Under the pieces are notes generated by a model, which saw nothing but the letters and a program-made list of their open reading frames with translations, searched no databases and was not told where the DNA came from. The translations under genes were made by a program, and so were the position numbers. This document shows positions 40,539 to 48,699 of a stretch of 64,000 nucleotides of DNA, piece by piece. The DNA is taken from assembly GCA_946410085.1 (NCBI GenBank), contig CAMJZA010000002.1, positions 1 to 64,000 on the forward strand, read 5' to 3'. The stretch is from an uncultured Treponema sp. Lineage in GTDB: Bacteria; Spirochaetota; Spirochaetia; Treponematales; Treponemataceae. Position 1 is the stretch's first letter; each line of letters begins with the position of its first letter.

Positions 40539-41246
40539 ATGATGAAAGAGAAACGACAAAACGTATACGAGTATTCTTTTGAGATGCAGCGCAGAAGGAA
40601 GCGGCGGATTACCACGACCCTGGCCACCATTTTCGGGACCTTCCTCTTCGTGACCCTCTTCCAGAGCTTCATCCTCTTTCCCATCCACATCAAGTCGGAC
40701 ACCATGGAAGACGGGCTTTCTGCAGGAGGCATCGCCTTTGTGTGTCCCCTGCTGAAGAAGCCCGAACGGGGCGACCTGTGCTATATAGCACGCATGGACG
40801 GACACCGGGAGTCATACCTCATGCGGCTTGCAGACTCCTTTGTCCGCTTCTTCACCTTCCAGCAGATCTCACCCTTCTCTGAAAGCAGCAAAAACAGCGG
40901 ACAGCCCTTTGTCAGGCGGGTCATCGCCCTGCCCGGCGACAGTGTATATATGAAGGATTTTGTCCTCTACATCAAACCGGATGCAGACAAGCACTATCTG
41001 TCCGAATTTGAGCTTTCGGGCAAGCCCTACAACGTGCAGATTTTTTCGATTCCTGCCGAATGGGACAATGTCGGCGTGTCAGGTGACCTGGAGGAGCAGA
41101 CGCTGGGAGAGGGAGAATACTTCGTCCTCGCCGACAACCGCGTGGAAAGCCTGGATTCCCGGCACTGGGGAGCCGTTAAAAGCGACCGCTTCCTCGGACG
41201 GGTCCTCCTCCAGTATTTTCCCGTCACCAGCATCAAGGCATACTGA
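40539..41246 (+). CDS. lepB: Signal peptidase I
   Basis: N-terminal TM, KSDTMEDGL, VRRVIALPGDSV, GEYFVLADNRVESLDSRHWG. Confidence 0.88.
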   Translation: MMKEKRQNVYEYSFEMQRRRKRRITTTLATIFGTFLFVTLFQSFILFPIHIKSDTMEDGLSAGGIAFVCPLLKKPERGDLCYIARMDGHRESYLMRLADSFVRFFTFQQISPFSESSKNSGQPFVRRVIALPGDSVYMKDFVLYIKPDADKHYLSEFELSGKPYNVQIFSIPAEWDNVGVSGDLEEQTLGEGEYFVLADNRVESLDSRHWGAVKSDRFLGRVLLQYFPVTSIKAY

Positions 41247-41261
41247 CCGCCTCCTGACCGG

Positions 41262-42491
41262 ATGACATCCAAAAGCCTGTACGTCCACATCCCCTTCTGC
41301 CGTTCAAAGTGTGCCTACTGTGACTTTTTCAGCAGGGGGGAAAGCAGGTTTGTTCCCGACACGTACCTGGACGCCCTCATCAGGGAACTTTCCTTTTATA
41401 CTGTCCGATACGGGATTGAGCAGTTTCGGACAGTCTACCTCGGAGGCGGTACGCCCAGCCTCCTCTCCCCGCCTCAGCTTTCCCGGCTTCTGCACGCAGC
41501 CTGCTCTGCCCCCCTGCCCCCCGAAGAAGTGACCGTCGAGATGAACCCCGAAAGCCTTTCAGAAGACCTGCTTGCCGTTTTCGCAGACTGTCCCGCAGAA
41601 CGGAAGCGGCTTTCGCTCGGAATCCAGAGCCTGCAGGAAACGGCCTTGAACGCAGTCAACAGGCACTGCACGGCACAGGAAGCCCGGAAAGCCCTTGACC
41701 TCACGGCACGGTACTGGCGGGGAGACCTCTGCCTGGACCTCATCGCCGGCCTGCCCTGCCAGACGGATACAGCATTCCTCAAATCCCTGCATGACTGCCT
41801 CGCGTACCGGCCGCAGCACGTCTCCCTCTACAGCCTGACCGTCGAAGAAGGGACACCGCTGTACACGACAATCGGCAGCATGGACTGGAATGCCGATGAG
41901 GCGGACGGACAGTGGATTGCCGGAAAGGAAGCGCTGGAAGCGGCAGGCTTCCGTCAGTACGAAGTGTCCAATTTCTGCAGGGAAGACCACGAAAGCAGGC
42001 ACAACATGACCTACTGGATGCAGGAAGACTACATCGGCATCGGGAGCGGGGCGACAGGTAGCATCTATGCCTTCTCCGGCGAAGGAGGCCTGCGCTGGAC
42101 GAACACCCGGGACATCGCAGCCTACAGCGCCTTCTGGAATGCCTGTGACAGGTCCGGCAACTCCGCCGGCAGCACCGGCGAAGCAGCAATCCCCTGCGAA
42201 AGGGAACGCCTGACGCTTGAAATTGAAGAAGAGGAATTTCTGATGATGGGCCTCCGCAGCACATACGGCATCAGTGCAGGGGAATACCGGCGCCGGTTCC
42301 CGGCACTTGAGCCGTGGCACGGCCGGCTGGAATGCAGGCTCGGCGTACGGGGAGGAGCCTGGGAACGCTTCTCGGCACTGGACGGCATGGCATCGGGCTG
42401 TAAAATTCGCAGGGAAGGAGACGATGTCACGTATGCTTTTGAGGGAAAGGCCCTTTCATTCCTGAACCGCTTTTTGCGGCTCCTGGCATGA
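41262..42491 (+). CDS. HemW-like radical SAM protein
   Basis: YVHIPFCRSKCAYCDFF cluster motif; GGGTPS. Confidence 0.92.
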   Translation: MTSKSLYVHIPFCRSKCAYCDFFSRGESRFVPDTYLDALIRELSFYTVRYGIEQFRTVYLGGGTPSLLSPPQLSRLLHAACSAPLPPEEVTVEMNPESLSEDLLAVFADCPAERKRLSLGIQSLQETALNAVNRHCTAQEARKALDLTARYWRGDLCLDLIAGLPCQTDTAFLKSLHDCLAYRPQHVSLYSLTVEEGTPLYTTIGSMDWNADEADGQWIAGKEALEAAGFRQYEVSNFCREDHESRHNMTYWMQEDYIGIGSGATGSIYAFSGEGGLRWTNTRDIAAYSAFWNACDRSGNSAGSTGEAAIPCERERLTLEIEEEEFLMMGLRSTYGISAGEYRRRFPALEPWHGRLECRLGVRGGAWERFSALDGMASGCKIRREGDDVTYAFEGKALSFLNRFLRLLA

Positions 42492-42496
42492 AGCAC

Positions 42497-42525
42497 TTGA
42501 CTTAATGAAAAAAAACGAGCATAAT
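42497..42525 (+). promoter_or_regulatory. Putative promoter upstream of the 29-codon gene
   Basis: TTGACT-N17-CATAAT. Confidence 0.65.
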
Positions 42526-42554
42526 ATTCACTAGAAATTTTAAGGAGTCCTATC

Positions 42555-42644
42555 GTGCCTTGTGGTAAAAAAAGAAAGCGCGCAAAAATTGCAACACATA
42601 AGCGGAAGAAGATGCTTAGGCGGAATCGGCATAAAGCAAAGTAA
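42555..42644 (+). CDS. 29-aa basic peptide, AURKAIP1/COX24 (mS38)-like putative ribosomal protein
   Basis: GTG start: MPCGKKRKRAKIATHKRKKMLRRNRHKAK; AAGGAG 7 nt upstream; too short for the supplied ORF track. Confidence 0.8.
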   Translation: MPCGKKRKRAKIATHKRKKMLRRNRHKAK

Positions 42645-42738
42645 GCCTGTAGTAGTTTTTGCTCCGAAAAAGAAGGACGGTTGTTCCTGCAATCCATTTG
42701 TCTGCAAATGGTTTACAGGACAGCTTTCCGACAATGCG

Positions 42739-42762
42739 GCCGGGAAATTCCCGGCTTTTTTT
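42739..42762 (+). terminator. Terminator/attenuator hairpin immediately upstream of dxs
   Basis: GCCGGGAA-A-TTCCCGGC followed by TTTTTTT, ending 16 nt before the dxs start. Confidence 0.85.
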
Positions 42763-42778
42763 ATAGGGAGAAAGCGGT

Positions 42779-44755
42779 TTGCTCCTGCAGAACATCAACT
42801 CGCCTGATGACCTGAAAAAAGTTCCCTCCTCACAGCTTCAGCTCCTTGCCGGCGAGCTGCGGTCGATTATCATCAAGACCGTTGGAAAAAACGGCGGCCA
42901 TCTTGCAAGCAACCTTGGTACCGTGGAGCTGACAATCGCACTGCACCGGGTCTTCAACAGCCCGCAGGACGCAATCATCTGGGACGTAAGCCACCAGTGC
43001 TATTCCCACAAGCTGCTGACGGGCCGCTATCGGGATTTTCCGACGATCCGGCAGAAGGACGGTCTATCCGGCTTTACCCGCATCAGCGAGAGTCCGCACG
43101 ACTACTTTGACGCCGGACACGCTTCTTCCTCCATTTCTTCCGCACTCGGCCTGCTTTCCGCATGGCGGATGCAGGGCCGGGAAGACAAGGTCGTTGCCGT
43201 CATCGGAGACGGTGCCCTGACCGGCGGCATGGCCTATGAAGCCCTGAGCCATGCGGGCCAGCTCGCAAAAAACCTCATCGTCATCGTCAACGACAACAAG
43301 ATGTCCATAAGCCCGAATACCGGATCCGTATCCCGCTACCTGTCCGTCCTTACCGCAACGGCAGGCTACCAGAACTTCCGGTACAAGATAGACCGTCTCG
43401 TCGACGACATTCCCTACATAAACAGGAAGCTGGGAAAATTCATCTACCGCTTCAAGCGGGGCTTGAAAGGCCTCCTCCTTACGAACAACCTCTTCGTGGA
43501 CCTGGGATTCGAATATGTCGGCCCCCTCAACGGGCATAATATCCAGCAGCTTGAACAGATGTTCCGCCGCGTCAGGAAGATGAACCGGCCGGTCATCATC
43601 CATGTCATCACGAAAAAAGGAAAAGGGTACCGGCCGGCAGAGCATGATCCTTCAACCTTCCACGGCGTCGGCCCCTTCAACATCAGCGATGGAGTCGTAG
43701 AAAAGTTTGACACGGTCAGTTTTACCGAGGTCTTCAGCCATGAAATTGTCAGCATGGCCGCAAAGGACTCCCGCATCTGCGCGATAACGGCAGCCATGTC
43801 AAAAGGAACGGGGCTGGACGCCTTTTCCCGGCGCTACAGGGACCGTTTCTTTGACGTCGGCATTGCAGAGGAACATGCCGTTACCTTCGCGGGCGGCCTT
43901 GCTGCGGGGGGCATGGTTCCGGTTGTCGCAATCTATTCAACCTTCATCCAGCGGTCAGTCGATCAGATTATCGAAGATATTGCCCTACAGGAACGGCATG
44001 TCATCATGGTCTTTGACCGGGCAGGAGCCGTCCCGGCAGACGGAGAAACCCATCAGGGCATTTTCGACATCGCCCTCCTCCGTCCCATTCCGAACCTGAC
44101 CCTGCTGACGGTAGCCAGCGAAAAAGACATGGAACTCTGCCTGAACTGGGCCGTAAACGAAGCAAAAGGTCCCGTTGCCCTGCGCTGGCCCAAGATGTCA
44201 TGCCCCTCTGAAATACCGGCCTTTTCCAAGCCCGTCATGAGCGGACGCGGCATTCTGGTCAAGAGCGATGAATTTGCCCCTGCCCTGAGCGTCGCACTGG
44301 AAGCAAAGGCAGAAGGCAAAAACAGGCTCCTTGCGGCACTCAGCTCCAAACGGAAAGGGCGGAAGGCATCCGACATGCTGCTGGTCTGTACCGGCAGCAT
44401 GTACAGTGAAAGCCTGACGGCGGCAAGAAGCCTCCTGCTCAAGGAACTCTCTGCGGATATCTACATTCTCCGCTTCCTCAAGCCCTTCGATGAAAGCTAT
44501 TTCCTGTCAATCGTAGAAAAATATGCAGCCGTTGTCTTCATTGAAGACGGCGTCCGCATCGGCGGCATGGCAGAATACCTTGACCGCCTGGTCTGTCAGG
44601 GCGGCAGGAAGGGCAGCAGAATTCCGACAGCAGTCCTCGCTTTCCCGAACCGGTTCCTCAGAAACGGTAACCGTGAACAGATACTCGAAGAAGCCCGCCT
44701 GAGTCCGAAGGATATAGCCGCCGCCGCAATGAACGTATGGGAGCAGACGAAATGA
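42779..44755 (+). CDS. dxs: 1-deoxy-D-xylulose-5-phosphate synthase, TTG start
   Basis: HLASNLGTVELTIALH, GDGALTGGMAYEAL, transketolase-like domains. Confidence 0.95.
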   Translation: MLLQNINSPDDLKKVPSSQLQLLAGELRSIIIKTVGKNGGHLASNLGTVELTIALHRVFNSPQDAIIWDVSHQCYSHKLLTGRYRDFPTIRQKDGLSGFTRISESPHDYFDAGHASSSISSALGLLSAWRMQGREDKVVAVIGDGALTGGMAYEALSHAGQLAKNLIVIVNDNKMSISPNTGSVSRYLSVLTATAGYQNFRYKIDRLVDDIPYINRKLGKFIYRFKRGLKGLLLTNNLFVDLGFEYVGPLNGHNIQQLEQMFRRVRKMNRPVIIHVITKKGKGYRPAEHDPSTFHGVGPFNISDGVVEKFDTVSFTEVFSHEIVSMAAKDSRICAITAAMSKGTGLDAFSRRYRDRFFDVGIAEEHAVTFAGGLAAGGMVPVVAIYSTFIQRSVDQIIEDIALQERHVIMVFDRAGAVPADGETHQGIFDIALLRPIPNLTLLTVASEKDMELCLNWAVNEAKGPVALRWPKMSCPSEIPAFSKPVMSGRGILVKSDEFAPALSVALEAKAEGKNRLLAALSSKRKGRKASDMLLVCTGSMYSESLTAARSLLLKELSADIYILRFLKPFDESYFLSIVEKYAAVVFIEDGVRIGGMAEYLDRLVCQGGRKGSRIPTAVLAFPNRFLRNGNREQILEEARLSPKDIAAAAMNVWEQTK

Positions 44756-45594
44756 AATGCCTCCACCTGGCAGACAGGGACATCACGACAGACCGGCCTG
44801 CATTCATCATGGGCATCGTCAATGCCACGCCGGACAGCTTTTACAGCGCCAGCAGAGGCGGCATTGATCGTGCCCTGCAGCTTATAGAGGAAGGGGCCGA
44901 CATCATAGATATCGGAGGTGAATCTACCCGCCCCGGTGCATCCTATGTCGATGAAGCAGAAGAACTCCACCGGGTCGTCTCGGTGATTGAACAGCTCAGG
45001 CGCAGGTCCGGCATCCCTGTTTCCGTCGACACCCGCAAGCGGTCCGTCATGGAAGCAGCCTGGAATGCAGGGGCAGACATCCTCAATGATATTTCCGCCC
45101 TGGAAGATGCGGCAGACATCGCAGCCTTCGCCGCAGACAGGAAACTGCCGGTTATCCTAATGCACAAGCGGGGCATTCCCAGGACCATGCAGGAAGAAAC
45201 CCGCTACGACAACGTGGTCAGCCAGGTCAGTTCCTATCTTGCACAGCGGGCCGCCGCCGCAGAAGCAGCAGGCATTGCCGGGAACAAGATTATCGTTGAC
45301 CCGGGAATCGGCTTCGGCAAGGGACTGGAAGAAAACCGCCGGCTCATCTGGAACTGCGGTTCCCTCTGCGGGGGCAGGTATCCGGTTCTGATGGCACTCT
45401 CACGGAAAAGCTGCATCGGACTCATGGTCGGGGAAGATGATGCAACCGGTGACGGACGGCTCTACGGGACCCTCGCCGCCGACATCATCGCCGTTCAACG
45501 GGGGGCATCCCTGCTGCGGGTTCACGACGTCAAGGCTTGCCGTAACACGCTCGACGTGATAAAATCACTCCAAGACTGCGGGGAAGAGGGGTAG
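44752..45594 (+). CDS. folP: Dihydropteroate synthase
   Basis: IMGIVNATPDSFY, DIGGESTRPGA. Confidence 0.95.
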   Translation: MKCLHLADRDITTDRPAFIMGIVNATPDSFYSASRGGIDRALQLIEEGADIIDIGGESTRPGASYVDEAEELHRVVSVIEQLRRRSGIPVSVDTRKRSVMEAAWNAGADILNDISALEDAADIAAFAADRKLPVILMHKRGIPRTMQEETRYDNVVSQVSSYLAQRAAAAEAAGIAGNKIIVDPGIGFGKGLEENRRLIWNCGSLCGGRYPVLMALSRKSCIGLMVGEDDATGDGRLYGTLAADIIAVQRGASLLRVHDVKACRNTLDVIKSLQDCGEEG

Positions 45595-45597
45595 CGA

Positions 45598-46419
45598 TTG
45601 ACATTCTTTTCGGTTTTAGGCCAGATTTATACGAATTACATCAATCCCTTTCTCGACATCATGCTGATGACATTCCTGATTTACTGGGCCTATAAGCTCA
45701 TCATCAGGACAAATGCCCTTCAAGTTCTGCGGGCAGTCATCTACTTCGTCATTTTCTACGTCATCGTCGTATTCATCCTTCGTCTGAACACCCTGAGCTG
45801 GCTGCTCAACATCGTCGGCCCCGCCTTCATCATCGGGGCAGTCATCATCCTGCAGCCGGAAATGCGGAAAATATTCCTCAAACTGGGACAGACTGACTGG
45901 TTCCTGCTGGGAGGAAAGAAGAAGCACACGTATGTGGATTCCGTGCTGGTCGCCGCATATGAAATGTCCAAACAGCGGCGGGGCATGCTGGTCGTGTTCA
46001 TGAAATCATCCAAGCTTGAACAGGTCATCGGGAGCGGACAGAAGATAAACGCAGACCTGTCCTCCAACCTCCTCATCACGATTTTCGGCCACGACACGCC
46101 GATGCACGACGGAGCCTGCGTCGTACAGGGCGACAAGATACTTGCGGCAGGCTGCTTCCTGCCCGTCAGCGAGAACTACGACATCAAGAAAACCTACGGG
46201 ACGCGGCACCGGGCCGCGCTCGGCCTGAGCGAGCAGTGCGATGCGGTGATTCTCGTCGTCAGCGAGGAATCCGGGGCAATCAGCCTTGCCTATGATTCAC
46301 AGCTCCACTATGACCTTCCGATTGAGACCCTGACGAGGATCCTTGAGAAAAAGCTAGAAATCAAGAAGGAAGATCAGAAGATAGAGGATTCAGAAGATGA
46401 ACACAAGTCTGCTTCGTGA
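45598..46419 (+). CDS. dacA: Diadenylate cyclase (DacA/CdaA type), TTG start
   Basis: Three N-terminal TM; HDGACVVQGD (DGA) and GTRHRAALGLSE (RHR). Confidence 0.94.
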   Translation: MTFFSVLGQIYTNYINPFLDIMLMTFLIYWAYKLIIRTNALQVLRAVIYFVIFYVIVVFILRLNTLSWLLNIVGPAFIIGAVIILQPEMRKIFLKLGQTDWFLLGGKKKHTYVDSVLVAAYEMSKQRRGMLVVFMKSSKLEQVIGSGQKINADLSSNLLITIFGHDTPMHDGACVVQGDKILAAGCFLPVSENYDIKKTYGTRHRAALGLSEQCDAVILVVSEESGAISLAYDSQLHYDLPIETLTRILEKKLEIKKEDQKIEDSEDEHKSAS

Positions 46420-47395
46420 AAAACTGCTCAGTCACTGGAAGGAAAAACTCGGCTGCTTCATCATGGCTCTGGCAATATACGCCTTTTATCAGATCCAGCG
46501 TTTTGAGCGGGAAGAATTCACCGTGCCGCTGGAAGTCAAGGCGCCGGGTAACCTCACGGTCAGGAGCGGTTTTGCGCTCCCCCAGTACGTGAAGGTCAGC
46601 CTCAGGGCAGACCGGGGCGAACTGGGCGGCATTTCATCGAGCGACATCGGAGCCTTCATAGACTTAAGCTATGCGTCACGGGCAGGAAGCTATGATTTTC
46701 TCGTCAACGTGCGGCCAAACCGGAGGCTTTCCAGCCTTTCCCCCCTTGAAATCAGCGTCCAGCCTCAGCGGATACAGGTTGAAATTGAAGAGGAAATTGT
46801 CCGCTTCGTTCCCATTTCCGCAACCATCTCGGGACAGCCCGCATACGGCTACGAAAGCAGCGCGGTCAGCATGGTACCGACCAGCGTAAAGCTGCAGGGT
46901 CCGAAGAGCGCCGTTGAAGGCATACAGGAAATTCAGACCGAAGAAGTCTCCCTCGACGGGGCAACCGAAAGCATCAGCAGGGAAGTCGGCTTCATGAACC
47001 TCAGTTCCCTGGTCATGGTCGACCCGGAACAGCAGGTGCAGGTCTCCGTTGCCATTACGCCGATCGAAGCTTCCAGGACAATCGAGGGCATTGAGATAAG
47101 CTACGACAACATTGATTCCCGCCTTGATATTTCCCACGAACGCAATCTGGTCACTATTACCGTGGAAGGCAAGCTGCTGGAACTGGACCGGATGAAGAAA
47201 AACAGCTGTTCGGCATCGGCAGACTGTTCAATGGCAACCGGTCCGGGAACCATCGAAGTTCCCGTGTTCATCCATGTACCCGACAACGTAAAACTGACCG
47301 CATGGACCGTCAATACCGTAACCGTGACCTTTACGGAAAAACCGGAAGCGGAACTCAGTCCCGAAGAAGAAGCCGCCTTCGGCTATTATTACTAG
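46397..47395 (+). CDS. YbbR-domain (CdaR-like) protein
   Basis: Single TM then repeated YbbR-like domains; follows dacA. Confidence 0.85.
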   Translation: MNTSLLREKLLSHWKEKLGCFIMALAIYAFYQIQRFEREEFTVPLEVKAPGNLTVRSGFALPQYVKVSLRADRGELGGISSSDIGAFIDLSYASRAGSYDFLVNVRPNRRLSSLSPLEISVQPQRIQVEIEEEIVRFVPISATISGQPAYGYESSAVSMVPTSVKLQGPKSAVEGIQEIQTEEVSLDGATESISREVGFMNLSSLVMVDPEQQVQVSVAITPIEASRTIEGIEISYDNIDSRLDISHERNLVTITVEGKLLELDRMKKNSCSASADCSMATGPGTIEVPVFIHVPDNVKLTAWTVNTVTVTFTEKPEAELSPEEEAAFGYYY

Positions 47396-47405
47396 CGCAG
47401 CAGCT

Positions 47406-47789
47406 ATGATTTGTGGAATAGGCTGTGACATCGCAAAAATCTCCCGATTCCAGTCCTGGCTGGAAAAACCGGGAATGATTGCCCGTTTTTTCAACGAACG
47501 GGAGTGCTTTCCGGGGCAGCATGCCAGCCAGGGACGGCTCATGGAATGGTATGCTGCACGCTTTGCCGCAAAAGAAGCTTTTGCAAAAGCATTAGGAACA
47601 GGTTTTTCTGCCTTTAAACTTGCCGATATGTATATAGAGAAGAACGATGACGGACAGCCTTTCCTCCGCGTGACGGGTGGGGCCAGGGAGAAAATGGAAT
47701 CCTTATATGGTAAGGATGTCCACGTCCATGTCTCCCTGAGCCATGAAAAGGAATATGCTGTTGCATTTGTGATTATAGAGCGGAGGTAA
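47406..47789 (+). CDS. acpS: Holo-[acyl-carrier-protein] synthase
   Basis: GIGCDIAKISRF, WYAARFAAKEAFAKALGTG. Confidence 0.93.
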   Translation: MICGIGCDIAKISRFQSWLEKPGMIARFFNERECFPGQHASQGRLMEWYAARFAAKEAFAKALGTGFSAFKLADMYIEKNDDGQPFLRVTGGAREKMESLYGKDVHVHVSLSHEKEYAVAFVIIERR

Positions 47790-47796
47790 TCTGTTT

Positions 47797-48699
47797 ATGA
47801 AAAAAGAGGAAGAGGGCGGCAAGAAACCGGCAGTCACCTATTGGAAGAAAGAACTGGCCGTCTGCCCCGTATGCGGGAAGAAATTCGGACAGGAAGAGAT
47901 GCACAAGGGTGGAGGCCGCATGATAGCAGGCCCCTTGACCGACGAACTGCACAGGGTTTTTGAGCCTTCAAAGAAATTCGGCCGCGTCTACCCCCTCATC
48001 TATGACATCGGATGCTGTCCCAAGTGCAATACGGCCCTGTTCTGGAATGACTTCACGGACCTAAAGGACAAGGCAAGCCTGGAACGGCTGGAAGCCGACA
48101 CGCCGCAGCGGCAGAAGCGGGTTGAAACCGTTTTCCCGAATTTCAACGTATCGACGGAAAAGAGCTTCATTGAGCGGAACCTCTATGACGGAGTTGCCTA
48201 TTACTACCTCGCCCTCCTGAGCTACGAAAAGGTTGACCTCGCATTCGGACCGACATTCAAGCGCGCAATGATAAGCCTCCGCCTTGCCTGGCTCTGCAAG
48301 GACCTGGATACCGCCTGTCCTGGGCACAACTTTGACTATATATCACAGGTCTTTTACCGGAAAGCCCTTTTCTTTTACCAGCAGACCCTGATCAATGAAA
48401 CCAGCCGCATTGAATCCATTGAGTCGATTCATTACTTTGGCCCCGATATGGACAAGAGCTACGGCTACGACGGCATCCTCTACCTCTGTGGCCTGTTGGA
48501 ATACAAGTACGGACAGCGGGAGGACGAAAGCCTGCGGCTCAAGAAGCTCAGCGAATTCAAGGGAGCGATCGCCAAGCTCTTCGGACTCGGAAAATCCTCG
48601 AAGGAAAAGCCGGGCCCCCTCCTTGAAGTTGCAAAGAACCTCTATGACGACATAGCAAAGGAGCTTTCGAACAACAACATCTTCTCGGATGATGACTAG
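47797..48699 (+). CDS. DUF2225-like protein
   Basis: CPVCGKKF ... CCPKCNTALFW zinc-ribbon-like start. Confidence 0.75.
   Translation: MKKEEEGGKKPAVTYWKKELAVCPVCGKKFGQEEMHKGGGRMIAGPLTDELHRVFEPSKKFGRVYPLIYDIGCCPKCNTALFWNDFTDLKDKASLERLEADTPQRQKRVETVFPNFNVSTEKSFIERNLYDGVAYYYLALLSYEKVDLAFGPTFKRAMISLRLAWLCKDLDTACPGHNFDYISQVFYRKALFFYQQTLINETSRIESIESIHYFGPDMDKSYGYDGILYLCGLLEYKYGQREDESLRLKKLSEFKGAIAKLFGLGKSSKEKPGPLLEVAKNLYDDIAKELSNNNIFSDDD

Follow-up and report, generated by a model that had tools for sequence, protein, structure and literature searches.

In an uncultured Treponema sp., the dxs gene lies immediately behind an intrinsic transcription terminator, which raises the question of how dxs and the genes that follow it are transcribed. 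We analyzed a 64,000-nucleotide stretch (assembly GCA_946410085.1, contig CAMJZA010000002.1, positions 1 to 64,000; hereinafter, the window) together with the corresponding loci of related genomes. The initial annotation of this DNA had interpreted the region upstream of dxs as a regulated leader, that is, an attenuator. Our results indicate that the flagged feature is a real, ordinary terminator in an interesting position: probably (with a probability of roughly 0.65), it is a leaky intercistronic terminator of the gene for ribosomal protein bS22 that lets a minor part of bS22 transcription pass on into the dxs operon.

The bS22-dxs locus

The gene that precedes dxs, described initially as COX24-like, encodes the ribosomal protein bS22, as indicated by matches to solved bS22 chains (phmmer; 3.6e-7 for 7jil and 7.7e-7 for 8fmw, the latter being a Borrelia burgdorferi ribosome entry). 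According to the report on the Borrelia ribosome, bS22 is unannotated in the Borrelia genome (PMC10618245). Of 146 congeners, 133 have bS22, and none of the 64 good-quality genomes lacks it; a promoter-like site (at least 9/12) is found 5' of the gene in 101 of 102 loci, compared to 23 of 102 after shuffling.

The bS22 stop codon and the dxs start codon are separated by 134 bases in the window. As previously noted, this gap contains a strong intrinsic terminator, with the stem at 42738-42756 and seven T at 42756-42762, which ends 16 nt before the dxs TTG (42779); the loop consists of 3 nt in the predicted fold rather than the single nucleotide originally given. In a scan of positions 41000-45000, no other terminator-like site combined six G-C pairs with an uninterrupted T run; no second full copy of the leader was detected within the same genome. 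The 16-nt interval already holds the dxs Shine-Dalgarno (SD) sequence, and the spacing is likewise short in many congeners, in agreement with the original remark that there is no space for a promoter downstream of the terminator. The assignment of TTG as the dxs start also holds: the equivalent position in close relatives is occupied by TTG or ATG, and the DXS homology begins there. Within this genome, no other product matches the N-domain family of DXS; one congener has a second, partial match, in a 592-residue frame that might represent a dxs paralogue (G100:C1:229578-230300).

The genes from dxs to the DUF2225 gene are tightly packed in the window (intergenic spacing of -19, 3, -23, 10 and 7 nt; Table 1), and their order is retained in two distant congeners, G143 and G132. 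The hemW gene, which is located upstream in the window, is unlinked in both of these genomes while the cluster is kept, indicating that the transcription unit begins at bS22. With a unit of this kind and no space for a promoter directly before dxs, all six genes seem to rely on leak-through. In G143, the folP-cdaA gap reaches about 480 nt, so that an internal promoter is possible there.

Table 1. Features of the bS22-dxs locus and the downstream gene cluster (positions in the window)
Feature	Coordinates	Strand	Basis
Sigma-70-like promoter of the bS22 gene (TTGACT-17-CATAAT), presumed only promoter for bS22-dxs	42497..42525	+	10/12 consensus
SD of bS22 (AAGGAG)	42542..42547	+	sequence
Ribosomal protein bS22 (AURKAIP1/COX24-like), 29 codons and stop, GTG start	42555..42644	+	phmmer
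Upstream hairpin containing CCATTTG-TCTG-CAAATGG, not conserved	42675..42729	+	fold
Intrinsic terminator, 8-bp stem, 3-nt loop, T7	42738..42762	+	fold; counterpart in 108/108 readable congeners
SD of dxs (AGGGAG), 8 nt before TTG	42765..42770	+	sequence; SD in 24/24 TTG-started congener copies
dxs, 1-deoxy-D-xylulose-5-phosphate synthase, TTG start	42779..44755	+	TIGR00204, 659 bits (cut-off 466)
folP	44737..45594	+	TIGR01496; follows dxs in G143 and G132
cdaA, diadenylate cyclase	45598..46419	+	PF02457, PF19293; synteny
cdaR/YbbR-like	46397..47395	+	PF07949; synteny
acpS, holo-ACP synthase	47406..47789	+	PF01648; synteny
DUF2225 protein, last of the cluster genes tested for conservation	47797..48699	+	PF09986; synteny

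The arrangement in relatives

The bS22 loci of the genus were collected from two genome searches, and 110 of them were read. In 108, bS22 is directly followed by dxs in the same orientation, the other two running into a contig end and a stretch of N, respectively, and a hairpin followed by a T-run separates the two genes in each of the 108 readable congeners. Thus, when the hairpin is looked for in relatives, as the initial annotation had proposed, its presence and position turn out to be conserved but its sequence does not. The commonest form in the genus is GACCGC...GCGGTC-T7/8, and the window and its nearest relatives share GCCGGG...CCCGGC-T7. A terminator arm specific to this place was considered and rejected: the genus-typical GCGGTC-T6 arm recurs 3-10 times per genome. 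In three loci (L034, L035 and L080), a GACCGC-type terminator is followed by a GCCGGG-type one in tandem, which suggests replacement by gain and loss. In three others (L027, L095 and L096), a repeat resembling GGTGGTTGAG...CGAAACCACC, perhaps a small mobile repeat, is inserted between the terminator and dxs.

The distance from the T-run to the dxs start is 20 nt or less in 36 of 106 congeners and 30 nt or less in 56 of 106. Where it is at most 20 nt and includes the SD, a separate promoter would have to lie within the stem and the T-run. The original claim that dxs must depend on readthrough is therefore borne out to the extent that the short spacing occurs across the genus; "probably depends" would be the more fitting wording.

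Outside the genus, most of the bS22 loci (L118-L130) also have a terminator, followed by genes other than dxs. Because it also occurs where a different gene comes after bS22, the terminator seems to belong to bS22. At another locus from outside the genus (L113), bS22 lies 31 nt ahead of dxs with no terminator between them, an organization that fits a co-transcribed bS22-dxs pair. The bS22-dxs pairing is old, albeit not universal.

Leak-through transcription of the dxs operon

Taken together, the promoter-like site, the terminator, the gene order and spacing, the start codons and their conservation, all read from sequence, are compatible with the following scheme. Transcription would start at the bS22 promoter (Table 1), and most polymerases would stop at about 42762, yielding a short, abundant bS22 mRNA, with a minority reading on into dxs-folP-cdaA-cdaR-acpS-DUF2225. 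The terminator would then fix a low ratio of operon to ribosomal-protein transcripts and, with no ligand-sensing antiterminator involved, the operon would be tied to the growth-dependent transcription of bS22. Translation of dxs would also be limited throughout the genus, either by a non-AUG start (in the window TTG, and in numerous relatives ACG or AUU) or by an AUG without an SD. The leak fraction, the coupling to growth, the low translation and the absence of regulation are what we infer from these features; against the scheme, a stem of such strength might terminate transcription nearly completely.

In function, the locus seems to be most like the macromolecular synthesis operon rpsU-T1-dnaG-rpoD of E. 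coli, in which the T1 terminator partly sets the abundance of the downstream transcript (PMC7863352). In both cases, a small-subunit ribosomal-protein gene, here directly upstream of dxs and with a promoter of its own, is followed by a Rho-independent terminator of conserved position and then by a gene needed in small amounts. Initiation of dnaG translation is poor in E. coli. The genes differ (bS22 and dxs-folP-cdaA-cdaR-acpS), there is no evidence of common descent, and the partial readthrough is presumed in the case of Treponema. The leak-through operon would be the rpsU-dnaG design repeated with other genes. Such an operon would link the synthesis of isoprenoids, folate, c-di-AMP and acyl-carrier protein to growth without a dedicated regulator.

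Alternatively, readthrough could be regulated in trans, by Nus factors, a processive antiterminator, Rho or bS22 itself, rather than by folding of the leader. The maintenance of a terminator ahead of a housekeeping operon in every readable congener would be in line with such control, and so would leaders that share no sequence. However, no common binding motif was seen among the leaders, and the recurrence of the GCGGTC-T6 arm elsewhere in the genomes means that it is not specific to the bS22-dxs gap; we consider this possibility unlikely.

Still less probable is a dxs promoter concealed within the terminator or directly behind it, which would make readthrough dispensable. In some relatives, 60-200 nt separate the terminator from dxs, and promoter-like sites are found there in 7 of 29 cases compared to 3 after shuffling (examples with long gaps are L009, L022, L025 and L072); furthermore, some ATG-started copies lack an SD, as would suit a near-leaderless mRNA. 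In the window, however, the gap is only 16 nt and the SD must be on the mRNA, so that the -10 element would fall in the GC-rich stem and the T-run, where no site was found.

An attenuator reading of the leader is not supported

The reading of the leader as an attenuator implies that a metabolite causes its RNA to fold into an antiterminator. Consistent with this, the leader folds far better than shuffled sequence (200 of 200 dinucleotide shuffles are outperformed; z -3.3), and some hairpin ahead of the terminator is retained in four close relatives. The CCATTTG/CAAATGG pairing reported initially does exist but is just the top of a longer hairpin (Table 1), which the nearest relatives have in a shortened or altered form, rebuilt in L031-L033, or lack, as in L002 and L037. 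The antiterminator proposed to form between TTTCCG and CGGGAAA finds no support: it comprises only 5 pairs, and in the best fold TTTCC is taken up by the basal part of the upstream hairpin.

To assess antitermination more generally, transcripts were cut before the 3' arm of the terminator, and the extent to which the leader pairs with the 5' arm was compared with that in shuffled leaders. No pairing beyond the chance level was detected: in the window, the occupancy of the 5' arm is 0.64 against a shuffled mean of 0.68, with 37 of 60 shuffles reaching the real value, and over 105 leaders the median is 0.46 against 0.47, with no antiterminator signal. The best fold that lacks the terminator is 9.4 kcal/mol worse in the window, and the cost across the leaders of 105 loci has a median of 11.9 and is at least 7.4 kcal/mol. 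Anywhere from about 30 to 209 nt lie between the bS22 stop and the T-run, the leader sequence is not conserved among congeners, and no conserved aptamer was found. A search of Rfam yielded no RNA family match at the gathering threshold, with sub-threshold matches of 18-19 bits only, in agreement with the earlier failure to recognize a known riboswitch class. Thus, the bS22-dxs leader resembles the TPP and T-box attenuators in that a terminator lies just 5' of a biosynthetic gene, but it lacks the conserved aptamer and the mutually exclusive antiterminator. Outside the genus, moreover, the terminator occurs independently of dxs. Our data thus give no support to a riboswitch-like attenuator, and we regard it as improbable.

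Apparent non-canonical start codons of dxs

The start codons of dxs are more surprising than the terminator, although this concerns the relatives and not the TTG of the window. In the 108 congeners, the aligned start codon is ACG in 32, ATG in 31, TTG in 24, ATT in 13 and GTG in 6, with two unclear, so that about 40% of the readable congeners seem to use ACG or ATT, both of which are very rare as start codons (for example, ACG in L003, L041, L105, L106 and L110, and ATT in L026, L091 and L098). The ACG is invariant while the neighbouring codons vary, and other threonine codons were not seen at this position. There is no in-frame ATG, GTG or TTG upstream, within the stretch examined, in 20 of the 32 ACG loci, and the first such codon downstream often lies past the conserved NGGHLASN motif (at least at codon 49) or is absent from the stretch read. 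Judged by sequence, a dxs start codon other than ATG, GTG or TTG is therefore conserved in relatives of the window. On a weakly resolved tree of 118 columns, ACG involves approximately 8 changes and ATT approximately 4.

The named isolate Treponema socranskii subsp. paredis ATCC 35535 (L151) has the ACG start, and so do the single-contig assemblies G143 and G132, which argues against an assembly artefact. Nor does this appear to be a genome-wide habit, given that control genes in the same genomes start normally: rpmI with ATG in all 17 cases found, bS22 with ATG, GTG or TTG in 130 of 130, and infC in a manner consistent with TTG in the 19 genomes where the N-terminus was located. Among 68 orthologue pairs from G143 and G132, only dxs has an ACG behind an SD at a conserved N-terminus, by inspection; this screen is weak because chance upstream TTG codons masked dxs in its automatic version. 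A start concealed by a hairpin was also rejected: alifold pairs the SD with codons 2-3, but the accessibility equals that of codon-shuffled controls.

The type of start codon is associated with the SD, which was counted when located 4-11 nt before the start. The SD is present in 30 of 32 ACG, 13 of 13 ATT and 24 of 24 TTG copies, and in 10 of 31 ATG copies. The difference between non-AUG starts (72/75) and AUG starts (10/31) is strong when relatedness is ignored (Fisher p about 8e-12); an independent-contrast test of start codon against SD included few supported pairs. The combination of a weak codon with an SD and of a strong codon mostly without one is what would be expected if a low rate of dxs translation is maintained, and so suggests such maintenance.

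Few natural non-canonical starts have been characterized (PMC5472188). Among these, infC, with an AUU or AUC start, and Streptomyces sigR, with GUC or GUU, are repressed by IF3, the GTC start of sigR being found in 32 of 34 Streptomyces species (PMC5472188). A study that reconstructed how start codons switched across 36 groups of genomes reported changes to CUG and AUU as rare events only and did not mention ACG (PMC5622118), and our literature search found no bacterial case of an ACG start. The dxs genes of the relatives resemble infC and sigR in having a non-canonical start behind an SD but differ in that the product is the first enzyme of isoprenoid synthesis and in that the codons, ACG and AUU, alternate with TTG, ATG and GTG within a single genus. 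A TTG start is not rejected by IF3, and the dxs of the window, with its TTG, departs from infC and sigR in this respect.

We tentatively propose that dxs could be throttled twice, by termination behind a ribosomal-protein gene and by initiation at ACG or AUU, against which IF3 discriminates; although we would not bet on it, such a two-level throttle, if real, would tie isoprenoid supply to both ribosome synthesis and initiation-factor activity. The ACG and AUU starts matter more than the leak-through operon. Gene finders that assume ATG, GTG or TTG would misplace the DXS start, in many cases within the conserved N-terminal region or past it, and the dxs starts lend themselves to a clean comparison of how start codon and SD strength trade off against each other.

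Two further loci are of note with respect to start codons. In L092 (G082), the aligned dxs start reads AGG with no clear alternative, representing either another non-canonical start or a sequence error. A homologue of flhB (L264; G132:C1, about 1274.6-1275.9 kb) has the conserved N-terminus IDLQWFAAEDEG without an ATG, GTG or TTG within ten codons; its start may be an ATA, or the frame may be continuous with one upstream.
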